Source of the DNA: Nitratiruptor tergarcus DSM 16512
GTDB lineage: Bacteria > Campylobacterota > Campylobacteria > Campylobacterales > Nitratiruptoraceae
Direction of reading: 5' to 3'
DNA: 64,000 bases
Assembly: GCF_027946175.1 (NCBI RefSeq)
Contig: NZ_AP026671.1
Span: 372,001 to 436,000, forward strand
The notes below the pieces were generated by a model, which saw nothing but the letters and a program-made list of their open reading frames with translations, did no database searches and was not told the DNA's origin. The position numbers were made by a program, and so were the translations under genes. Shown piece after piece: positions 5,224-32,046 of the stretch; within the stretch, counting starts at the first letter, position 1, and every line of letters begins with the position of its first letter.

Positions 5224-6558
5224 ATGATGAAAAAATTTTTTGTGTATATAATGATATTAATTTTACCTTATATAGCTTTGGCCGAAAGTGACTGTAAAAA
5301 AATTACTATCAAAGCTATGATTGATGGAAGAAGTGAACTTATATTAGAGAAGGAGCGTGCATTTCCTTCATTAGACATTGAAATAAGATGGAAACATTAT
5401 GATTTTGCTGCTCCAGGTCTTCATAATAATCACAATGAGCCTACATATATTAATAATGTGCTATGGTATCCTTCATGGCCTTTTGACGGAGAAGGGTATA
5501 ATTGTTCAGAGAGTGGTTGTAAATCTTCGAGTTTCCGTTTTGAATGTGATAGTGATTTTGAAAATGCTAAATTGCATAAGTTAAAAGGCAGAGGGAGTGT
5601 AAAAATTAAATTTAAAGATAAATTTTCATTGGTAATAGAAATTGATGATAATGAATATCCTTCACATGATTGGTATGAATTTGAAATAATTTTTGAACCG
5701 CAAGAATGTGTAAGTGAAGTAAATGGTGTTAATGGTGCTACATGTTATAAAATAGGAGAAACTAATTCAAATGATTCAATGGTGCAAGAACAAATGTATC
5801 GTGAGACACATGGAGGATCATGGGTTGATGGAGTTTGTATGAGTAGTGGCACCACTTCCAATAATATTTCACACTCTAGTTCAGTTTTAAGAGCATGTTT
5901 GCCCGGCCAACCATGTAACCTCGATACTTCATCTTCTAGTTCTCAAAATAATACATCTGGTAGCTCTGAGGATTTTTATTATACTTCTAACATGAAAAAA
6001 GGTTCATTATATGATTATTTTAATAATCGTTGTAGAGTGCCTTATGATTGTGGATATGAACTCGTTTTCGATAGAGCAACAGTTAATGAAATTGTACGCC
6101 AAAAAATAGTACAAAAAAAAGGGAGTATAACTGATTACTACAACCATGAGGAATGTTTGCCTGGCGAACCATGTAATGGAGCAGAGAAATTATTTGATAA
6201 AACTGTAGTACAGCAGATTGTGCAAAGAGAAATTAGTAAATGTAGAACAAATCCAAAATCTTGTGGTATTAATGCAGTTCCAATTATTACTAAAAAAAGT
6301 GATCCAAATGAAATATTAAATCAAATTAAAAATAAAGTTTTTAGTATCAAAGGATATTATATACATTATGGAGATGGTATATTTGAATGGATTTATATTC
6401 CTGTATCTTTGAAATCAGCTATGAAGCTTGAAAAAGGTGTAAAAGAAGATTACTCATTAATCTGGACACGATTACCAAAGAATATTACTATAATAAAAGA
6501 AGGAAATCTGATAAAAATCATTGATCATGAGAGGTTTCCTGGTATTCAGAATAGATAG
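5224..6558 (+). CDS. Secreted cysteine-rich repeat protein with shared C-terminal GYF/WIY domain (unrecognised)
   Basis: I recognise no named family. Residues 1-20 form a signal peptide ending ALA. Residues 25-165 form a strand-rich domain with several cysteines. Around 196-205 is HGGSWVDGVC, followed by a Ser/Thr/Asn-rich linker. CLPGQPCN (225-232) precedes two tandem 40-residue repeats (258-297 and 298-337) with the pattern KKGSxxDYxNxxC ... C ... FDxxxVxxIVxxxI. A CRTNPKSCGI module (340-349) then leads to a C-terminal domain at about 376-435 containing GYYIHYGDGIFEWIYIP. This domain and the cysteine modules recur in the proteins at 25034-25690 and 29686-32046. Base composition looks more A/T-rich than its neighbours, and an IS256 remnant follows, suggesting horizontal acquisition. 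Likely extracellular or cell-surface. Confidence 0.85.
   Translation: MMKKFFVYIMILILPYIALAESDCKKITIKAMIDGRSELILEKERAFPSLDIEIRWKHYDFAAPGLHNNHNEPTYINNVLWYPSWPFDGEGYNCSESGCKSSSFRFECDSDFENAKLHKLKGRGSVKIKFKDKFSLVIEIDDNEYPSHDWYEFEIIFEPQECVSEVNGVNGATCYKIGETNSNDSMVQEQMYRETHGGSWVDGVCMSSGTTSNNISHSSSVLRACLPGQPCNLDTSSSSSQNNTSGSSEDFYYTSNMKKGSLYDYFNNRCRVPYDCGYELVFDRATVNEIVRQKIVQKKGSITDYYNHEECLPGEPCNGAEKLFDKTVVQQIVQREISKCRTNPKSCGINAVPIITKKSDPNEILNQIKNKVFSIKGYYIHYGDGIFEWIYIPVSLKSAMKLEKGVKEDYSLIWTRLPKNITIIKEGNLIKIIDHERFPGIQNR
5995..6235 (+). repeat. Two degenerate tandem repeats (~120 bp, 40 codons) inside the secreted protein gene
   Basis: Codons 258-297 and 298-337 of the gene at 5224 align with each other: KKGSLYDYFNN versus KKGSITDYYNH, then a C-x5-C pair, then FDRATVNEIVRQKI versus FDKTVVQQIVQREI. 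The DNA is well diverged, so this duplication is older than the one at 25.1-25.5 kb. Confidence 0.7.
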
Positions 6559-6689
6559 GGCAATTAGACTATAAATTGTGGTCATTTCATAAATATTTAA
6601 TCAAAAAAGTTGATGATATCAAATCATATTTACATGAAACTTTTGATATAATTTCAGTTTACTTGTACGTAGAAATTTGAATAATAATA

Positions 6690-7526
6690 GATTGGAAAGA
6701 TGGAGTGCTTACACCATTTATTAAACAACTCATAAAAGGCTGCTTTAGAAGTAGAATTTGAATTACATCTATCTAAAGAGATAAAAAACCATAAAAATGG
6801 CAAATCTTCACAAACAATAAAGAGATCATTTGGCGAGTCTGAACTAGAGGTTTTAAGAGAGAAAAGGGATATTTGTCCTCGCTTCATTGCGGAGATGTCG
6901 TTACTTCATTTCTCGGACGGCTATCTGTTTTACAGATTTAAACAATAGAGGGGTCGAAGATATACTCATTGCATCAGTTGATTGCTTAAAAGGTTTTCCA
7001 GAGGTTATCCATGCAATATTTACTAAACAGAAGTGCAACTATGCATTATTTTCCGTCAGAGCAAAGTGACAACCCATAGGCAAAGCCAAGGACAAATAAA
7101 AACTCTTTGAAATACGTAGCTTCAAAAAATCAAAAAGAGTTTATAAAAGGCTTTAAGAAGTGTATTAGCTCATATCCAAAGAGGCTGCTGAAAAGGAATT
7201 GGATTGGCTTGAAGAGAGGTAAAAAGTATCCTATTGTTATCAACTCCTGAAGTAACAAGTAGGAAAACCTCTCTTATTTCAAATATTCTGAAGATATCCG
7301 TCATATAGTCTATACTATAAATATCATAAATCAGTCATTTACAGTTTAGAAAATTAACTAAGACCAAAGGAGCGTCTTCAATGAAAACAGCCTTTTAAAG
7401 CTACTTTATCTTGGCATTCAGAATGTTCAGAAAAAGTGAACAAAACCAGTTAAGAAATTGAAATCTAATGTTTCGCAATTAGCTGTATTTTTTGAAGGGA
7501 GACTCAAGAAAGCTCTCGAGCTATGA
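6690..7526 (+). pseudogene. Decayed IS256-family (mutator-type) transposase
   Basis: No intact gene lies between 6559 and 7572, but pieces of an IS256-family transposase can be read in order across all three plus-strand frames. An N-terminal DGVLTPFIKQL then, after a frameshift, ALEVEFELHLSKEI and NGKSSQTIKRSFGE appear at 6690-6865. The central TDLNNRGVEDILIASVD and KGFPEVIHAIF are at about 6930-7020. LKYVASKNQKEFIKGF is near 7110. The C-terminal ENSLLKLLYLGIQNVQKK and SQLAVFFEGRLKKALEL run to a stop at 7526. Much of the region between the N-terminal part and the central block is missing, including the expected first catalytic aspartate. Several stops and frameshifts make it inactive. IS256 transposases normally have about 400 residues. 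Confidence 0.85.
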
Positions 7527-7542
7527 TATAATCCTATGAACT

Positions 7543-7566
7543 ATCGGTGACACAAAATTATGAACG
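7543..7566 (+). mobile_element. Probable right terminal inverted repeat of the IS256 remnant
   Basis: The sequence GGTGACACAAAATTATGAAC after the transposase remnant resembles IS256-family right ends, which often carry a GACACAAAATT core. It directly abuts the 3' end of aroK. I could not find a convincing left-end partner between 6559 and 6690, so the element boundary on that side is unknown; the 6559-6689 stretch itself shows no gene. Confidence 0.45.
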
Positions 7567-7572
7567 GTCTCA

Positions 7573-24817: not shown

Positions 24818-25037
24818 ATATAAAGAAGAGTGCAGATATGCAGAAGATATAGCAGAAGATACAAAAGCAGTATTAGAAAAATGGCTTAAACGCTATGGAT
24901 GGGACATTCCTGAACTTGATGAAGATGTTGCAGCTAAACTTATCCTTACACAGATGCGCAAAACTCTTGATGAACTAGAAGTTCAATATTGCGGAGGCTC
25001 CTGTGGTACGGAACCTCCAAGTTGTGAAACTCCTTAG
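24807..25037 (+). CDS. Conserved small hypothetical protein with C-terminal Cys motif
   Basis: The 76-residue acidic protein has a helical N-terminal part (AEDIAEDTKAVLEKWLKRYGWDIP), an LTQMRKTLDELEVQ helix, and a C-terminal CGGSCGTEPPSCETP tail with three cysteines. It could bind a metal, but I do not recognise a family. The ATG has AAGGAAGAG in front and overlaps truD, so it belongs to the thiL-truD transcript. It converges with the secreted protein gene at 25034, overlapping by four bases. Confidence 0.75.
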   Translation: MRAEYKEECRYAEDIAEDTKAVLEKWLKRYGWDIPELDEDVAAKLILTQMRKTLDELEVQYCGGSCGTEPPSCETP

Positions 25038-25064
25038 AGTCCTGGAAAAGGACTCCCTAGAGTT
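25029..25064. terminator. Inverted repeat between convergent genes
   Basis: GAGTCC (25037-25042) and GGACTC (25050-25055) pair around a 7-base loop, and the outer ACTC/GAGT and TA/TA positions extend the stem. It spans the stops of both convergent genes. No T-run follows, so the terminator call is weak. Confidence 0.4.
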
Positions 25065-25690
25065 GAATTACCTATGGCGATTTTTCCTTGTTTTACGGAA
25101 ACAGAAACAAATTTTTTAGTTAAATCTGTCCATTGAAAATAGCCGGTATCTGGATCTAAACCATTAAGTTTATAAAGTCCTCCGCCTACCGGTCTATAAA
25201 TCCAATCATATGCTCCTTGTCCAAAGTTTGCAAAATATCCTTGGATCTTTATTTCTCTGTTTTTTAATGTATTCACTATATTTGAATTTTGATTTTCATT
25301 TGAATCGCCTATAACAATCTTTCCTTGTTTTACGGAAACAGAAACAAATTTTTTAGTTAAATCTGTCCATTGAAAATAGCCGGTATCTGGATCTAAACCA
25401 TTAAGTTTATAAAGTCCTCCGCCTACTGGTCTATAAATCCAATCATATGCTCCTTGTCCAAAGTTTGCAAAATATCCTTGGATCTTTATTTCTCTGCTTT
25501 TTAATGCATAAACTATATTTGAATCGGAGTTATGGTAATTCGGTTGGGAGGAAGTATATGTTTGAGAAAGACAAACTCCATCAGCCCATATACCACCGTG
25601 CTGCTGACAATACTCTTTAGCATTAGAGTCTGCATACACTAATGAAATTGCTCCAATTGCAAGAAGTGTGTAAGCCAATTTTTTTAACAT
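25034..25690 (-). CDS. Secreted protein with two tandem GYF/WIY domains (unrecognised family)
   Basis: No named family is recognised. The 218-residue product begins with a signal peptide (residues 1-20, ending VYA), then EYCQQHGGIWADGVCLS at 27-42, matching HGGSWVDGVC in the protein at 5224. A short polar linker leads to two almost identical domains (about 57-128 and 137-207): GYFANFGQGAYDWIYRP, then LYKLNGLDPDTGYFQWTDL and FVSVSVKQGKI. The same domain ends the proteins at 5224 and 29686. The real start is the second ATG, seven bases after GAGGAG; an earlier in-frame ATG is part of that ribosome site. It may be a small extracellular or periplasmic binding module; function unknown. Confidence 0.85.
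   Translation of the reverse strand: MLKKLAYTLLAIGAISLVYADSNAKEYCQQHGGIWADGVCLSQTYTSSQPNYHNSDSNIVYALKSREIKIQGYFANFGQGAYDWIYRPVGGGLYKLNGLDPDTGYFQWTDLTKKFVSVSVKQGKIVIGDSNENQNSNIVNTLKNREIKIQGYFANFGQGAYDWIYRPVGGGLYKLNGLDPDTGYFQWTDLTKKFVSVSVKQGKIAIGNSTLGSPFPGL
25071..25524 (-). repeat. Recent tandem duplication, 237-bp period
   Basis: Bases 25071-25287 and 25308-25524 are nearly identical at the DNA level, offset by 237 bases (79 codons). Differences are a few scattered changes, several of them silent. The two copies encode the two GYF/WIY domains of the gene at 25034. Such identity implies a recent duplication or ongoing gene conversion. Confidence 0.95.
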
Positions 25691-25750
25691 ATTTTTTCTC
25701 CTCATTTAATTTTTTCGTATTATATTTAATAAAAATTATCAAATCGTTAT

Positions 25751-29685: not shown

Positions 29686-32046
29686 TTATTTGAAAGTTAT
29701 AGATCTTCCATCATTTGATAATTTGATAGAAGAGAAAAGATTAGTTAAGTTTTCACTCCAAGAGAAGCTTCCATCACTTTTCATACCTTGTAATTTTTTG
29801 ACTGTTCTTAGAGTCGATGAAATATATATCCAATCAAATAGGGGATTGGTACTAATAGGATCATTATAGTGTATAAAATAGCCGGTAATATTATAATTAG
29901 ATTTTTTTACTAATATGTTTCTGATATGCTCTTTTGGCGTGGTGAATATCATCTCTTTTGCTCCAGATGTGGTCGTTATGCCACAGCTTACCGGATCTTT
30001 TTGGCAAAGCTGTTTGCCATACTCAATCGCTTCTTGGACGCTTAAATTCTCCACTGTGATGATTTTGAGTGCTTGGGCAACGTTGCCCTGATCGTCGATG
30101 GCTTTGATTTTAATGAGGTGATCTCCAGGAGTATCGAAAGTGAGGGAAACGCTTCGAATTGTCGGATCTATGGATTCGTATCCGTTGCCTTTGTCGATAT
30201 AAAGCTCGGTGATCTCATTGGGTGATTCGATATTGAGATGGATGATGACAGGATGATAGATCTTTGGCTTGCTACTTATTTCGATGGTGATTTTGGGCTT
30301 GTTTCGATGGGCGGGAGGATTGCCATATTCACTGGCACCAATGTCGATCCTACCATTTACAATCCGTGGATTGCCAAAGTAGTCTGTTTTAAGGTATTTG
30401 AGTATCTTGGCGTATTCTTGCGCATTGTCAAAATATCTTTTGAACAGTTCATCGTCAGGATTAAGCCCGGCATCGATTGCAGGAGAATCGCTTTGGAGAG
30501 TGATATTGTCGTCTTTGAGTTTGATATCACCCACGATCGATGGCAGGAGATTGCTTTTTTTGGTGATATCAAAGCCATGTTCATCTATTTTTTCACAGTT
30601 GATGTAATTGTTGTAAAGTTTTGAATCAGCTATAGAATAAATACATTTATTCTGCATTTCATTGCTATCCCATGAAAACTCACTATTCGAAAAAAAATAG
30701 TCTATTGCGCTATTATCTTTAATTTGATTTATGAAAAAAATATTATTAGCAATTAAACCGTTAGAGTGAATTGGATTATTAATGAAATTATTATTAATTA
30801 TAATAGAATTTGAAGATGAAAAAAATCCATAATATCTATTATTTAAAATAAAGGAGTTGATTACCGTTACACTGCTATGTGACGTAAAGCCATTATACCC
30901 ATTTTTTGAAATTTTGGAATTGATTACCGTTGCTGAATGATGATAAGAAGAGGAATAAAATCCGCTTCCTCGATTGCTTGAAATCGTAGAGTTAGTTACA
31001 TATGTCGAACCATAATCTGAAATAAATCCATATCTTCCATTGTTTGAAATTATAGAATTATTCACTTCTACCGTATGTGATGAAGAAAATCCATTTCCTC
31101 CATTGCTTGAAATCGTAGAGTTAGTTACATATGCTGAACCATAATCTGAAATAAATCCATCTCCTCCATTGTTTGAAATTATAGAATTATTCACTTCTAC
31201 CGTATGTGATGAAGAAAATCCGTTTCCTTTGTTATTAGAAATTGTGGAGTTTGTTATTTTTGCAGAACTTGCAGAAAATCCATCTCCTCCATTGTTTGCA
31301 ATTGTAGAATTATTTACTTCTGCAGAACTTGCAGAAAATCCATTTCCTTCATTATTAGAAATTACAGAATCTAAAATCTTCACTAAACCTCTTGAAGTAA
31401 ATCCAATACCTTTATTATAAATAATTTTGGAATTATTTATTTCTACTGATTTATCACAATGAAACCCCTCACCCTCATTGTAAGAAATAATAGAATCGAG
31501 AATTTTTACCCTTCCACCTGCATAAAATCCATTGCTCTCTTTGAAGCTATTAGCGTTATAAGAGATGTTGCAATTCTTGATGAGAACATCTATATCGGTA
31601 TAAAATCCACCACCTTTTGAGTCAGCTTTTCCATATAAGATGGAAAGATTTTTAAGATTTAGAAATGGTCTAGAATATGGTTTTTTGTGATTGGATAAAG
31701 GATTACATTTTTTACCGGGTAAACATATTTGTGGTCGATGGGCATTGGTAAGATTCATCACCTGATCAGTATTATCTCCATTCAAAACGATCTCACTTCT
31801 GTCGTATCCCGCTGCTCCTTGGATGGTGAGGTTGTACTCTTCATCGTCATGGAATGTAAAAGTCCCTTTTCCATCACTCGTCGTCACATATCTGCCCGGT
31901 TGGAGGATGATGGTATCATTTTCTCCATTGTGAGCAGCGTTTTCAAGAGCCTGGCGAAGCTCTGCAGTGTTGCTTACATTGAATGTAGCTGAAAAGATGG
32001 AGAGTGGTAATAGAGTTAATAACGTGATATATTTTTCCGGGTGCAC
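29686..32046 (-). CDS. Secreted right-handed beta-helix protein with Ig-like and C-terminal GYF/WIY domain
   Basis: The 786-residue protein starts with a signal peptide (LLTLLPLSIFSA, residues 9-20). Residues 22-100 are the usual beginning of parallel beta-helix proteins (TAELRQALENA ... IILQPGRY ... LTIQGA). CLPGKKCN (108-115) matches a motif in the protein at 5224. About 20 short PbH1 rungs of the form NSxISNNxGxGF follow. The helix closes with SPAIDAG and a GNPRIVNGRIDIGASEYG segment. An Ig/PKD-like domain follows, then CQKDPVSCGI (681-690) and the shared C-terminal domain (717-786; GYFIHY, FDWIYIS, FSWSENL). The start is GTG, five bases after AAGGAA at the end of the peptidase gene. The rungs and C-terminal domain are clearly more A/T-rich than the flanking parts. 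Confidence 0.88.
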   Translation of the reverse strand: MHPEKYITLLTLLPLSIFSATFNVSNTAELRQALENAAHNGENDTIILQPGRYVTTSDGKGTFTFHDDEEYNLTIQGAAGYDRSEIVLNGDNTDQVMNLTNAHRPQICLPGKKCNPLSNHKKPYSRPFLNLKNLSILYGKADSKGGGFYTDIDVLIKNCNISYNANSFKESNGFYAGGRVKILDSIISYNEGEGFHCDKSVEINNSKIIYNKGIGFTSRGLVKILDSVISNNEGNGFSASSAEVNNSTIANNGGDGFSASSAKITNSTISNNKGNGFSSSHTVEVNNSIISNNGGDGFISDYGSAYVTNSTISSNGGNGFSSSHTVEVNNSIISNNGRYGFISDYGSTYVTNSTISSNRGSGFYSSSYHHSATVINSKISKNGYNGFTSHSSVTVINSFILNNRYYGFFSSSNSIIINNNFINNPIHSNGLIANNIFFINQIKDNSAIDYFFSNSEFSWDSNEMQNKCIYSIADSKLYNNYINCEKIDEHGFDITKKSNLLPSIVGDIKLKDDNITLQSDSPAIDAGLNPDDELFKRYFDNAQEYAKILKYLKTDYFGNPRIVNGRIDIGASEYGNPPAHRNKPKITIEISSKPKIYHPVIIHLNIESPNEITELYIDKGNGYESIDPTIRSVSLTFDTPGDHLIKIKAIDDQGNVAQALKIITVENLSVQEAIEYGKQLCQKDPVSCGITTTSGAKEMIFTTPKEHIRNILVKKSNYNITGYFIHYNDPISTNPLFDWIYISSTLRTVKKLQGMKSDGSFSWSENLTNLFSSIKLSNDGRSITFK
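30958..31230 (-). repeat. Tandem 129-bp repeat in the beta-helix gene
   Basis: Two successive 129-base units (43 codons, two helix rungs each) match almost perfectly; for example ATTGCTTGAAATCGTAGAG starts at 30973 and again at 31102. Shorter, less perfect 66-base units continue toward 31350. Expansion or contraction would add or remove whole helix turns without breaking the frame. Confidence 0.85.

Follow-up and report, generated by a model that had tools for sequence, protein, structure and literature searches.

Three genes of the window (i.e., the whole stretch of DNA analysed, 64,000 nucleotides of Nitratiruptor tergarcus DSM 16512) encode proteins whose N-termini are hydrophobic by inspection of the sequence, and their parts are collected in Table 1. 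P0001 can be counted among the right-handed beta-helix proteins by its match to Pfam Beta_helix (E 2.3e-17) and is also matched by the NCBIfam model choice_anch_Q; for P0003, no Pfam or NCBIfam family was found. The AlphaFold2 model of the P0002 domain doublet (pLDDT 87, pTM 0.71) has one helix and, after it, seven strands in each copy; the cysteine module of the same protein is modelled as a helix plus a hairpin with one cysteine in each (pLDDT ~85). Only the C-terminal domain is confidently predicted for P0003, the linker of which is predicted to be disordered (pLDDT below 50), with its cysteine loops being modelled without confidence.

Table 1. Positions of the features in the three window genes (window numbering) and of related loci outside the window.
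Feature	Position	Strand	Remarks
P0003, 444-aa exported protein	5224..6558	+	unique N-terminal region, cysteine-module linker, two repeats, one C-terminal domain
HGGSWVDGVC module, P0003	5809..5838	+	first loop cysteine replaced by arginine
CLPGQPCN loop (C-x5-C), P0003	5896..5919	+	in Ser-rich linker
First ~40-aa repeat, P0003	5995..6114	+	aa 258-297; contains CRVPYDC (6031-6051)
Second ~40-aa repeat, P0003	6115..6243	+	aa 298-340; contains CLPGEPCN (6154-6177)
CRTNPKSCGI module, P0003	6241..6270	+	directly before C-terminal domain
C-terminal GYF/DWIY domain, P0003	6322..6513	+	single copy; profile E 5.5e-24
C-terminal tail ERFPGIQNR, P0003	6529..6555	+	second-best of 578 ORF tails against TM198 tail
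P0002, 223-aa exported protein	25034..25705	-	cysteine helix-hairpin, two tandem domains, tail
C-terminal tail SPFPGL, P0002	25037..25054	-	best of 578 ORF tails against TM198 tail
Domain copy 2, P0002	25058..25270	-	206/216 nt identical to copy 1
Domain copy 1, P0002	25295..25507	-	first of tandem pair
HGGIWADGVC module, P0002	25571..25600	-	both cysteines present, YCQQHGGIWADGVC
P0001, 786-aa beta-helix protein with C-terminal domain	29686..32046	-	
C-terminal GYF/DWIY domain, P0001	29689..29913	-	profile E 1.4e-22
CQKDPVSCGI module, P0001	29977..30006	-	before C-terminal domain; kept in ortholog
CLPGKKCN, P0001	31702..31725	-	in ~26-aa segment missing from ortholog of other Nitratiruptor species
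Tail-sharing loci	C2 (L047, L048); NZ_AP023064.1; NZ_AP023066.1; G013:C200		
Phage domain gene NrS4_55	L194:7881-8228		phages NrS-4/NrS-5, temperate

A sequence-only reading had drawn attention to short cysteine strings in these proteins, all of which are indeed present, with their coordinates in P0003, P0001 and P0002 now being established; the interval proposed for them, 5995-6360, does hold the repeats, CLPGEPCN and CRTNPKSCGI, whereas CLPGQPCN and HGGSWVDGVC lie upstream of it. The tandem repeat of about 40 residues claimed for P0003 stands as well (alignment score 70, reached by 0/500 shuffles), and each of its copies carries a C-x5-C pair, CRVPYDC and CLPGEPC, respectively. When the whole 1.94 Mb genome, consisting of the chromosome C1 and the 34,983-bp contig C2 (a plasmid), was searched with degenerate DNA patterns, CLPGxxC was found seven times (twice in P0003, once in P0001 and four times in a 790-aa C2 protein), GGxWxDGxC likewise seven times (in P0003, in P0002 and five times in a 956-aa C2 protein), and CxxxPxSCGI only in P0003 and P0001 (two matches), while the reversed control patterns of all three motifs had no match in the whole genome. 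Background occurrence in unrelated secreted proteins had been named as the observation that would speak against the motifs; none of the three was encountered among the 357 ORFs of 20 background stretches of 20 kb, of which a crude rule classed 86 as exported-like. The motifs are thus real and specific to one set of exported proteins. In the other genomes of the genus, single CLPGxxC matches mean little, since the background there is about one match, and up to a few, per genome; phage proteins gave no convincing match to CxxxPxSCGI.

Two further observations concern the surroundings of these features. The beta-helix part of P0001 (30400-31600, - strand) contains near-identical internal repeats (NGGNGFSSSHTVEVNNSIISNN), and as their number differs from that in the ortholog L177, a repeat expansion is suggested. 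Directly downstream of the P0003 gene, the window holds a decayed insertion sequence (6600-7570) with no intact ORF, one fragment of which matches Transposase_mut (Mutator family) with an E of 6.9e-05.

The C-terminal domain and its distribution

As judged by BLASTP, the main similarity among P0001, P0002 and P0003 resides in their C-terminal ~70 residues, and it is this domain, rather than the cysteine loops, which are minor parts, that makes up the main unit common to the three proteins. Its pattern reads I-x-G-Y-F-x-x-[YF]-G-x-G-x-[FY]-D-W-I-Y ... K-L-x-G-[ML]-D ... G-Y-F-x-W, where the first position may also be [IVL], and the CRTNPKSCGI and CQKDPVSCGI modules do stand just before it in P0003 and P0001, as had been stated. 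A profile built from 17 copies and counted at E below 1e-12 retrieved 27 copies in 19 exported-protein genes of the genome, on both the chromosome and the plasmid, with one to four copies per protein and with partners as different as subtilase (Peptidase_S8), DUF285 (BspA-like) repeats, a PQQ_2 beta-propeller, LVIVD-like repeats, the beta-helix and RCC1, to which CAP is added in other species. The earlier observation was right, and its frame too small: it had missed this domain as the main unit, and a network that takes in a plasmid and a phage besides about 19 genes.

Searches of Pfam-A and NCBIfam with the domain returned only sub-threshold, mutually inconsistent matches, none above the curated cut-off, those of PHROGs no match, and those of the PDB sequences (with the profile) no credible match; the fold of the P0002 doublet likewise found no counterpart at E<=0.001 among PDB and BFVD structures (Foldseek). 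The domain is present in 11/15 other genomes of the genus and in 0/6 genomes of the sister genera of the family, with one weak match in the rest of the 150 relatives searched, and the independent matches came from Nitratiruptor, Campylobacterales and one Sulfurovum MAG. By these searches, the domain family is undescribed and nearly confined to Nitratiruptor.

It is also encoded on named Nitratiruptor plasmids and by the phages NrS-4/NrS-5, which have, between the tail fibre and lysozyme genes, a gene for a 115-aa single-domain protein with a hydrophobic N-terminus; a role of this NrS4_55 product in superinfection, or as a surface decoy, is possible. A viral origin of the domain was considered and rejected, with the peptide pattern finding no relatives in IMG/VR, though NrS-4/NrS-5 do carry one copy.

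Seven genes of the genome have DUF285-type repeats behind the same ~70-aa domain, which makes the BspA-like DUF285 surface proteins a natural comparison, although the three window genes themselves lack such repeats. These seven (C1 1829586-1842602 and 1186475-1189260; L050, L051) are near-identical in sequence and all have the same N-terminal domain, and five of them are clustered, with a gene of PQQ type in their midst; together they make up an expanded and probably recombining array. The profile search also picked up a divergent, longer form of the domain, which stands N-terminally in at least seven further exported proteins of the genome (C1 68887, 125768, 522440, 1440548, 1550391 and similar positions), RCC1 and LVIVD proteins among them; its pattern, YDFxxDGxxxxxDWLY ... 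YRLMGxxPTxxAFGW, is reminiscent of a calcium loop, and the profile scores tie it only weakly to the short form.

The plasmid T2SS and the C-terminal tails

A type II secretion system (T2SS) is encoded by the very cell that carries the three genes, namely on C2, the T2SS genes of which comprise those for a GspC-like PDZ protein, the secretin GspD, GspE, GspF, GspG and three further prepilin-like proteins, accompanied by two PPIase-like proteins, a PMT-type protein O-mannosyltransferase, GT2 and GtrA. Genes of exported proteins are found on the same plasmid: a subtilase with a domain doublet, and Ser-rich proteins of 956, 948 and 790 aa, the first of which has five identical HGGTWADGTC modules. 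The 790-aa protein (C2:27667-30039, L048:9667-12039) is lipoprotein-like, with CLPGxPC occurring four times, and its Ser-rich region contains internal motifs resembling both plasmid tails (DFPSIGGGE three times and GGLPHTG twice).

The plasmids of strains YY08-26 and YY09-18 follow the same plan as C2, and that of YY08-14 has no T2SS genes; the paper describing these strains reports one 24-35 kb plasmid per isolate, and the word "secretion" is absent from it. In the few complete genomes, the two features agree: the T2SS plasmid and the domain co-occur in our strain, YY09-18 and YY08-26, and two complete genomes without GspG are also without the domain. Over 16 genomes of the genus, however, the association of GspG with the domain is loose (seven with both, five with the domain only, one with GspG only and three with neither), which does not support the domain as a strict T2SS tag. 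A graded version of the idea is nevertheless retained, because plasmids are often lost from MAGs (three near-complete genomes of the domain-only class being MAG-like in appearance), and because some of the GspG matches (those of G007 and G012) come from another kind of locus, of chromosomal type.

A more particular connection concerns the extreme C-termini. Ser-rich plasmid proteins and ~200-aa single-pass membrane proteins, the latter forming one family, end in common peptides when encoded by the same plasmid: on C2, NSALPHL (790 aa) and NGAIPHV (948 aa) against SALPHI of the membrane protein; on pNitYY0826, GAFEGLGG (516 aa) and GAFGGIA (857 aa) against GAFEGIQ; on pNitYY0918, LPAGPGA (428 aa) against LPTGPGS; and in G013, GAFVGISR (468 aa) against GAFVGIKR (all written up to the stop codon). 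The peptide differs from plasmid to plasmid, and the true within-plasmid pairing had the best score of all 24 permutations, where four plasmids set the limit at 1/24. A C2 membrane protein encoded next to gspG, TM198, ends in ERSPFPGIR, and the two tails most similar to it among 578 ORF tails of the genome were those of P0002 (SPFPGL) and then P0003 (ERFPGIQNR), with shuffled tails reaching the best score in 0/2000 and the second-best score in 7/2000 cases. As the comparison is post hoc, uses a hand-chosen tail length and an ORF pool enriched for this very network, and covers four plasmids, the tail matching, that of P0002 and P0003 to TM198 included, is to be taken as a strong lead, not a result. 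A matching tail is absent from P0001. Recent copying of DNA can be dismissed as the source of the matching tails, since these are written in different synonymous codons, with divergence of the DNA setting in directly after the stop.

Such tails might represent a strain-specific C-terminal address code, in which the tail pairs a cargo with the secretion machine of its own plasmid (e.g., via the GspC PDZ domain or a common processing enzyme), a proposal that we regard as tentative and somewhat short of an even chance. The chromosomal P0002 and P0003 would then bear the tail that belongs to the second membrane protein of the resident plasmid, an idea offered just as tentatively.

The domain could instead be a surface adhesion or cell-envelope module having no link to the plasmid T2SS, which binds envelope polysaccharide or matrix and so retains enzymes and adhesins at the surface, by whichever route they are exported. 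This would sit well with the fusion partners of the domain, most of which are parts of extracellular enzymes, repeats or adhesin-like, with its presence in near-complete genomes where no GspG was found, and with the small single-domain protein (hydrophobic at its N-terminus) encoded by phage NrS-4/NrS-5, yet it leaves unexplained both the tail matches with a T2SS-linked membrane protein and the co-location of the domain with T2SS genes on several plasmids/contigs. We consider it a possibility to be taken seriously, if a rather doubtful one.

Module shuffling, descent and the cysteine loops

The sequence-only reading had suggested that the modules are exchanged between the three genes, a view that is supported in part. 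In a tree of 87 domain copies, which is based on a short alignment and has many unresolved forks, the P0001 domain groups with that of its beta-helix ortholog from a different species (support 99), the P0003 domain with the protein L054 of the same genome and with four other species, and the P0002 copies with other copies of the same genome. Recent exchange among P0001, P0002 and P0003 is consequently not supported, as their domains fall into three different subfamilies. The two domain copies within several proteins are each other's nearest relatives, and those in subtilases are old and distinct.

Recombination of modules between genes is, on the other hand, borne out when the genus as a whole is considered. 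A P0003 relative on plasmid pNitYY0826_PLS (WP_199201757.1) has in common with P0003 the HGG module, the CxxxPxSCGI module (as CRQDPKSCGI) and the domain, the final 272 bp being 76% identical at the nucleotide level, and has another N-terminal domain; L054, too, combines the C-terminal half seen in P0003 with a different N-terminal domain. In one other species (L174b), the VSDGWVL domain, which the plasmid CLPGQPC protein has at its N-terminus, is found fused to CxxxPxSCGI and the ~70-aa domain. Together with the CLPGKKC segment of P0001, these cases support shuffling at the genus scale, not among the three.

Might plain paralogy, i.e., the inheritance of the motifs from ancestral secreted genes through duplication and divergence, suffice without any exchange of modules? 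In the tree, the window genes do each group with orthologs from other species or with near paralogs, and P0003-type genes with their modules in the same order exist in at least six other species. We still deem it unlikely, as it has to cope with the same C-terminal half following different N-terminal domains (P0003 versus its plasmid relative, and L054), with a CLPGKKC segment of P0001 that is lineage-specific, with the same cysteine module in otherwise unrelated proteins, and with a VSDGWVL fusion confined to a single species.

Regarding the cysteines themselves, the correspondence proposed between HGGSWVDGVC and HGGIWADGVC holds insofar as both modules are present, but the P0003 copy has lost the first cysteine (YRETHGGSWVDGVC, with arginine at the position where YCQQHGGIWADGVC of P0002 has cysteine) and its loop therefore cannot close; the cysteine total of P0003 is 15, an odd number. 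Cysteine pairs are present at all CLPG sites of this genome, in contrast to the partnerless HGGSWVDGVC of P0003. At the CLPG site of P0003 relatives, the cysteine is optional (NLPGTP, VPGQEP and EMPGAS occur there), so the conserved core is a hydrophobic-P-G (L/V/M-P-G) turn, and the cysteine pair an optional staple. Disulfide-stabilised modules, as had been envisaged, are plausible. CLPGxxC does not resemble an LPXTG sortase signal, being internal and having no transmembrane helix after it. That the two-cysteine loops bind metal instead of forming disulfides is very improbable: the vent setting, the metal-tolerant genus and the conceivable affinity of C-x5-C for soft metals would suit the idea, whereas the CLPG-site cysteines are lost together in relatives with the LPG turn staying, no His/Met enrichment surrounds the sites, and a publication on how strain SB155-2 resists metals, in the part consulted, does not point to such proteins.

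A proposed modular set of exported proteins

The reading that we favour, at a probability of about 0.55 when taken as a whole, is that P0001, P0002 and P0003 are members of a modular set of exported proteins specific to Nitratiruptor, with shuffling at the linkers, a tie to the T2SS plasmid and an export route as follows. Each member would combine a hydrophobic signal at its N-terminus with a variable "business" part, a linker and one to four of the ~70-aa domains. The "business" part would be a beta-helix or a unique domain and, in relatives, a subtilase, BspA-like repeats, a beta-propeller or CAP, while the linker, flexible and often Ser-rich, would accommodate small optional loops, namely C-L-P-G-x-x-C turns and a C-x11-C helix-hairpin. 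The set may have grown by gene duplication, tandem domain copying and recombination at the linkers, on both the chromosome and the T2SS plasmid. Its products would be exported by Sec, after which the cysteine pairs could close in the periplasm, stapling the otherwise disordered linkers against heat and proteases, and the PMT-type transferase of the plasmid may attach O-glycans to the Ser-rich linkers. The proteins would then reach the cell surface via the plasmid T2SS, the address presumably being the C-terminal domain and, in some of them, also the short tail at the C-terminus.

Known systems offer partial parallels. The GlyGly-CTERM/rhombosortase proteins of T2SS bacteria (of the VesB type; PMC3237569, PMC12369372) are likewise diverse exported proteins with a common C-terminal module, whereas the Nitratiruptor module is a domain of ~70 aa, often doubled, plus a soluble, strain-specific tail. 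The C-termini of P0001, P0002 and P0003 are soluble beta-domains with a short tail, and lack the GlyGly-CTERM combination of the motif, a transmembrane helix and basic residues (PMC3237569). In V. cholerae VesB, an Ig-like C-terminal domain carries T2SS information that depends on, and is read by, the GspC PDZ domain (PMC12369372). Small disulfide hairpins (C..GG.W....C / CPxGYxYNxxxGxC, half of a CBM_14-like unit) are alike in that an aromatic residue within a linker is enclosed by a loop of two cysteines, and one relative has a sub-threshold CBM_14 match; the modules described here differ in their cysteine count (two, not six), in the absence of a chitin-binding domain and in their placement in Ser-rich linkers, in places as identical tandem copies. 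Choice-of-anchor families (NCBIfam) are exported proteins with a common module paired with different sorting tails, and their domains are similar in this sharing of a module (choice_anch_Q itself being present in P0001), although the new domain matches no such NCBIfam model.

How the T2SS recognises folded cargo is a long-standing open question, and the genus offers a gene-by-gene test of it, having a compact plasmid T2SS, a domain on the likely cargo and tails that co-vary with a T2SS-linked protein. Through a domain that is still nameless in the databases searched, one can see a vent chemolithoautotroph that maintains a shuffling repertoire of exported proteins across chromosome, plasmid and phage.
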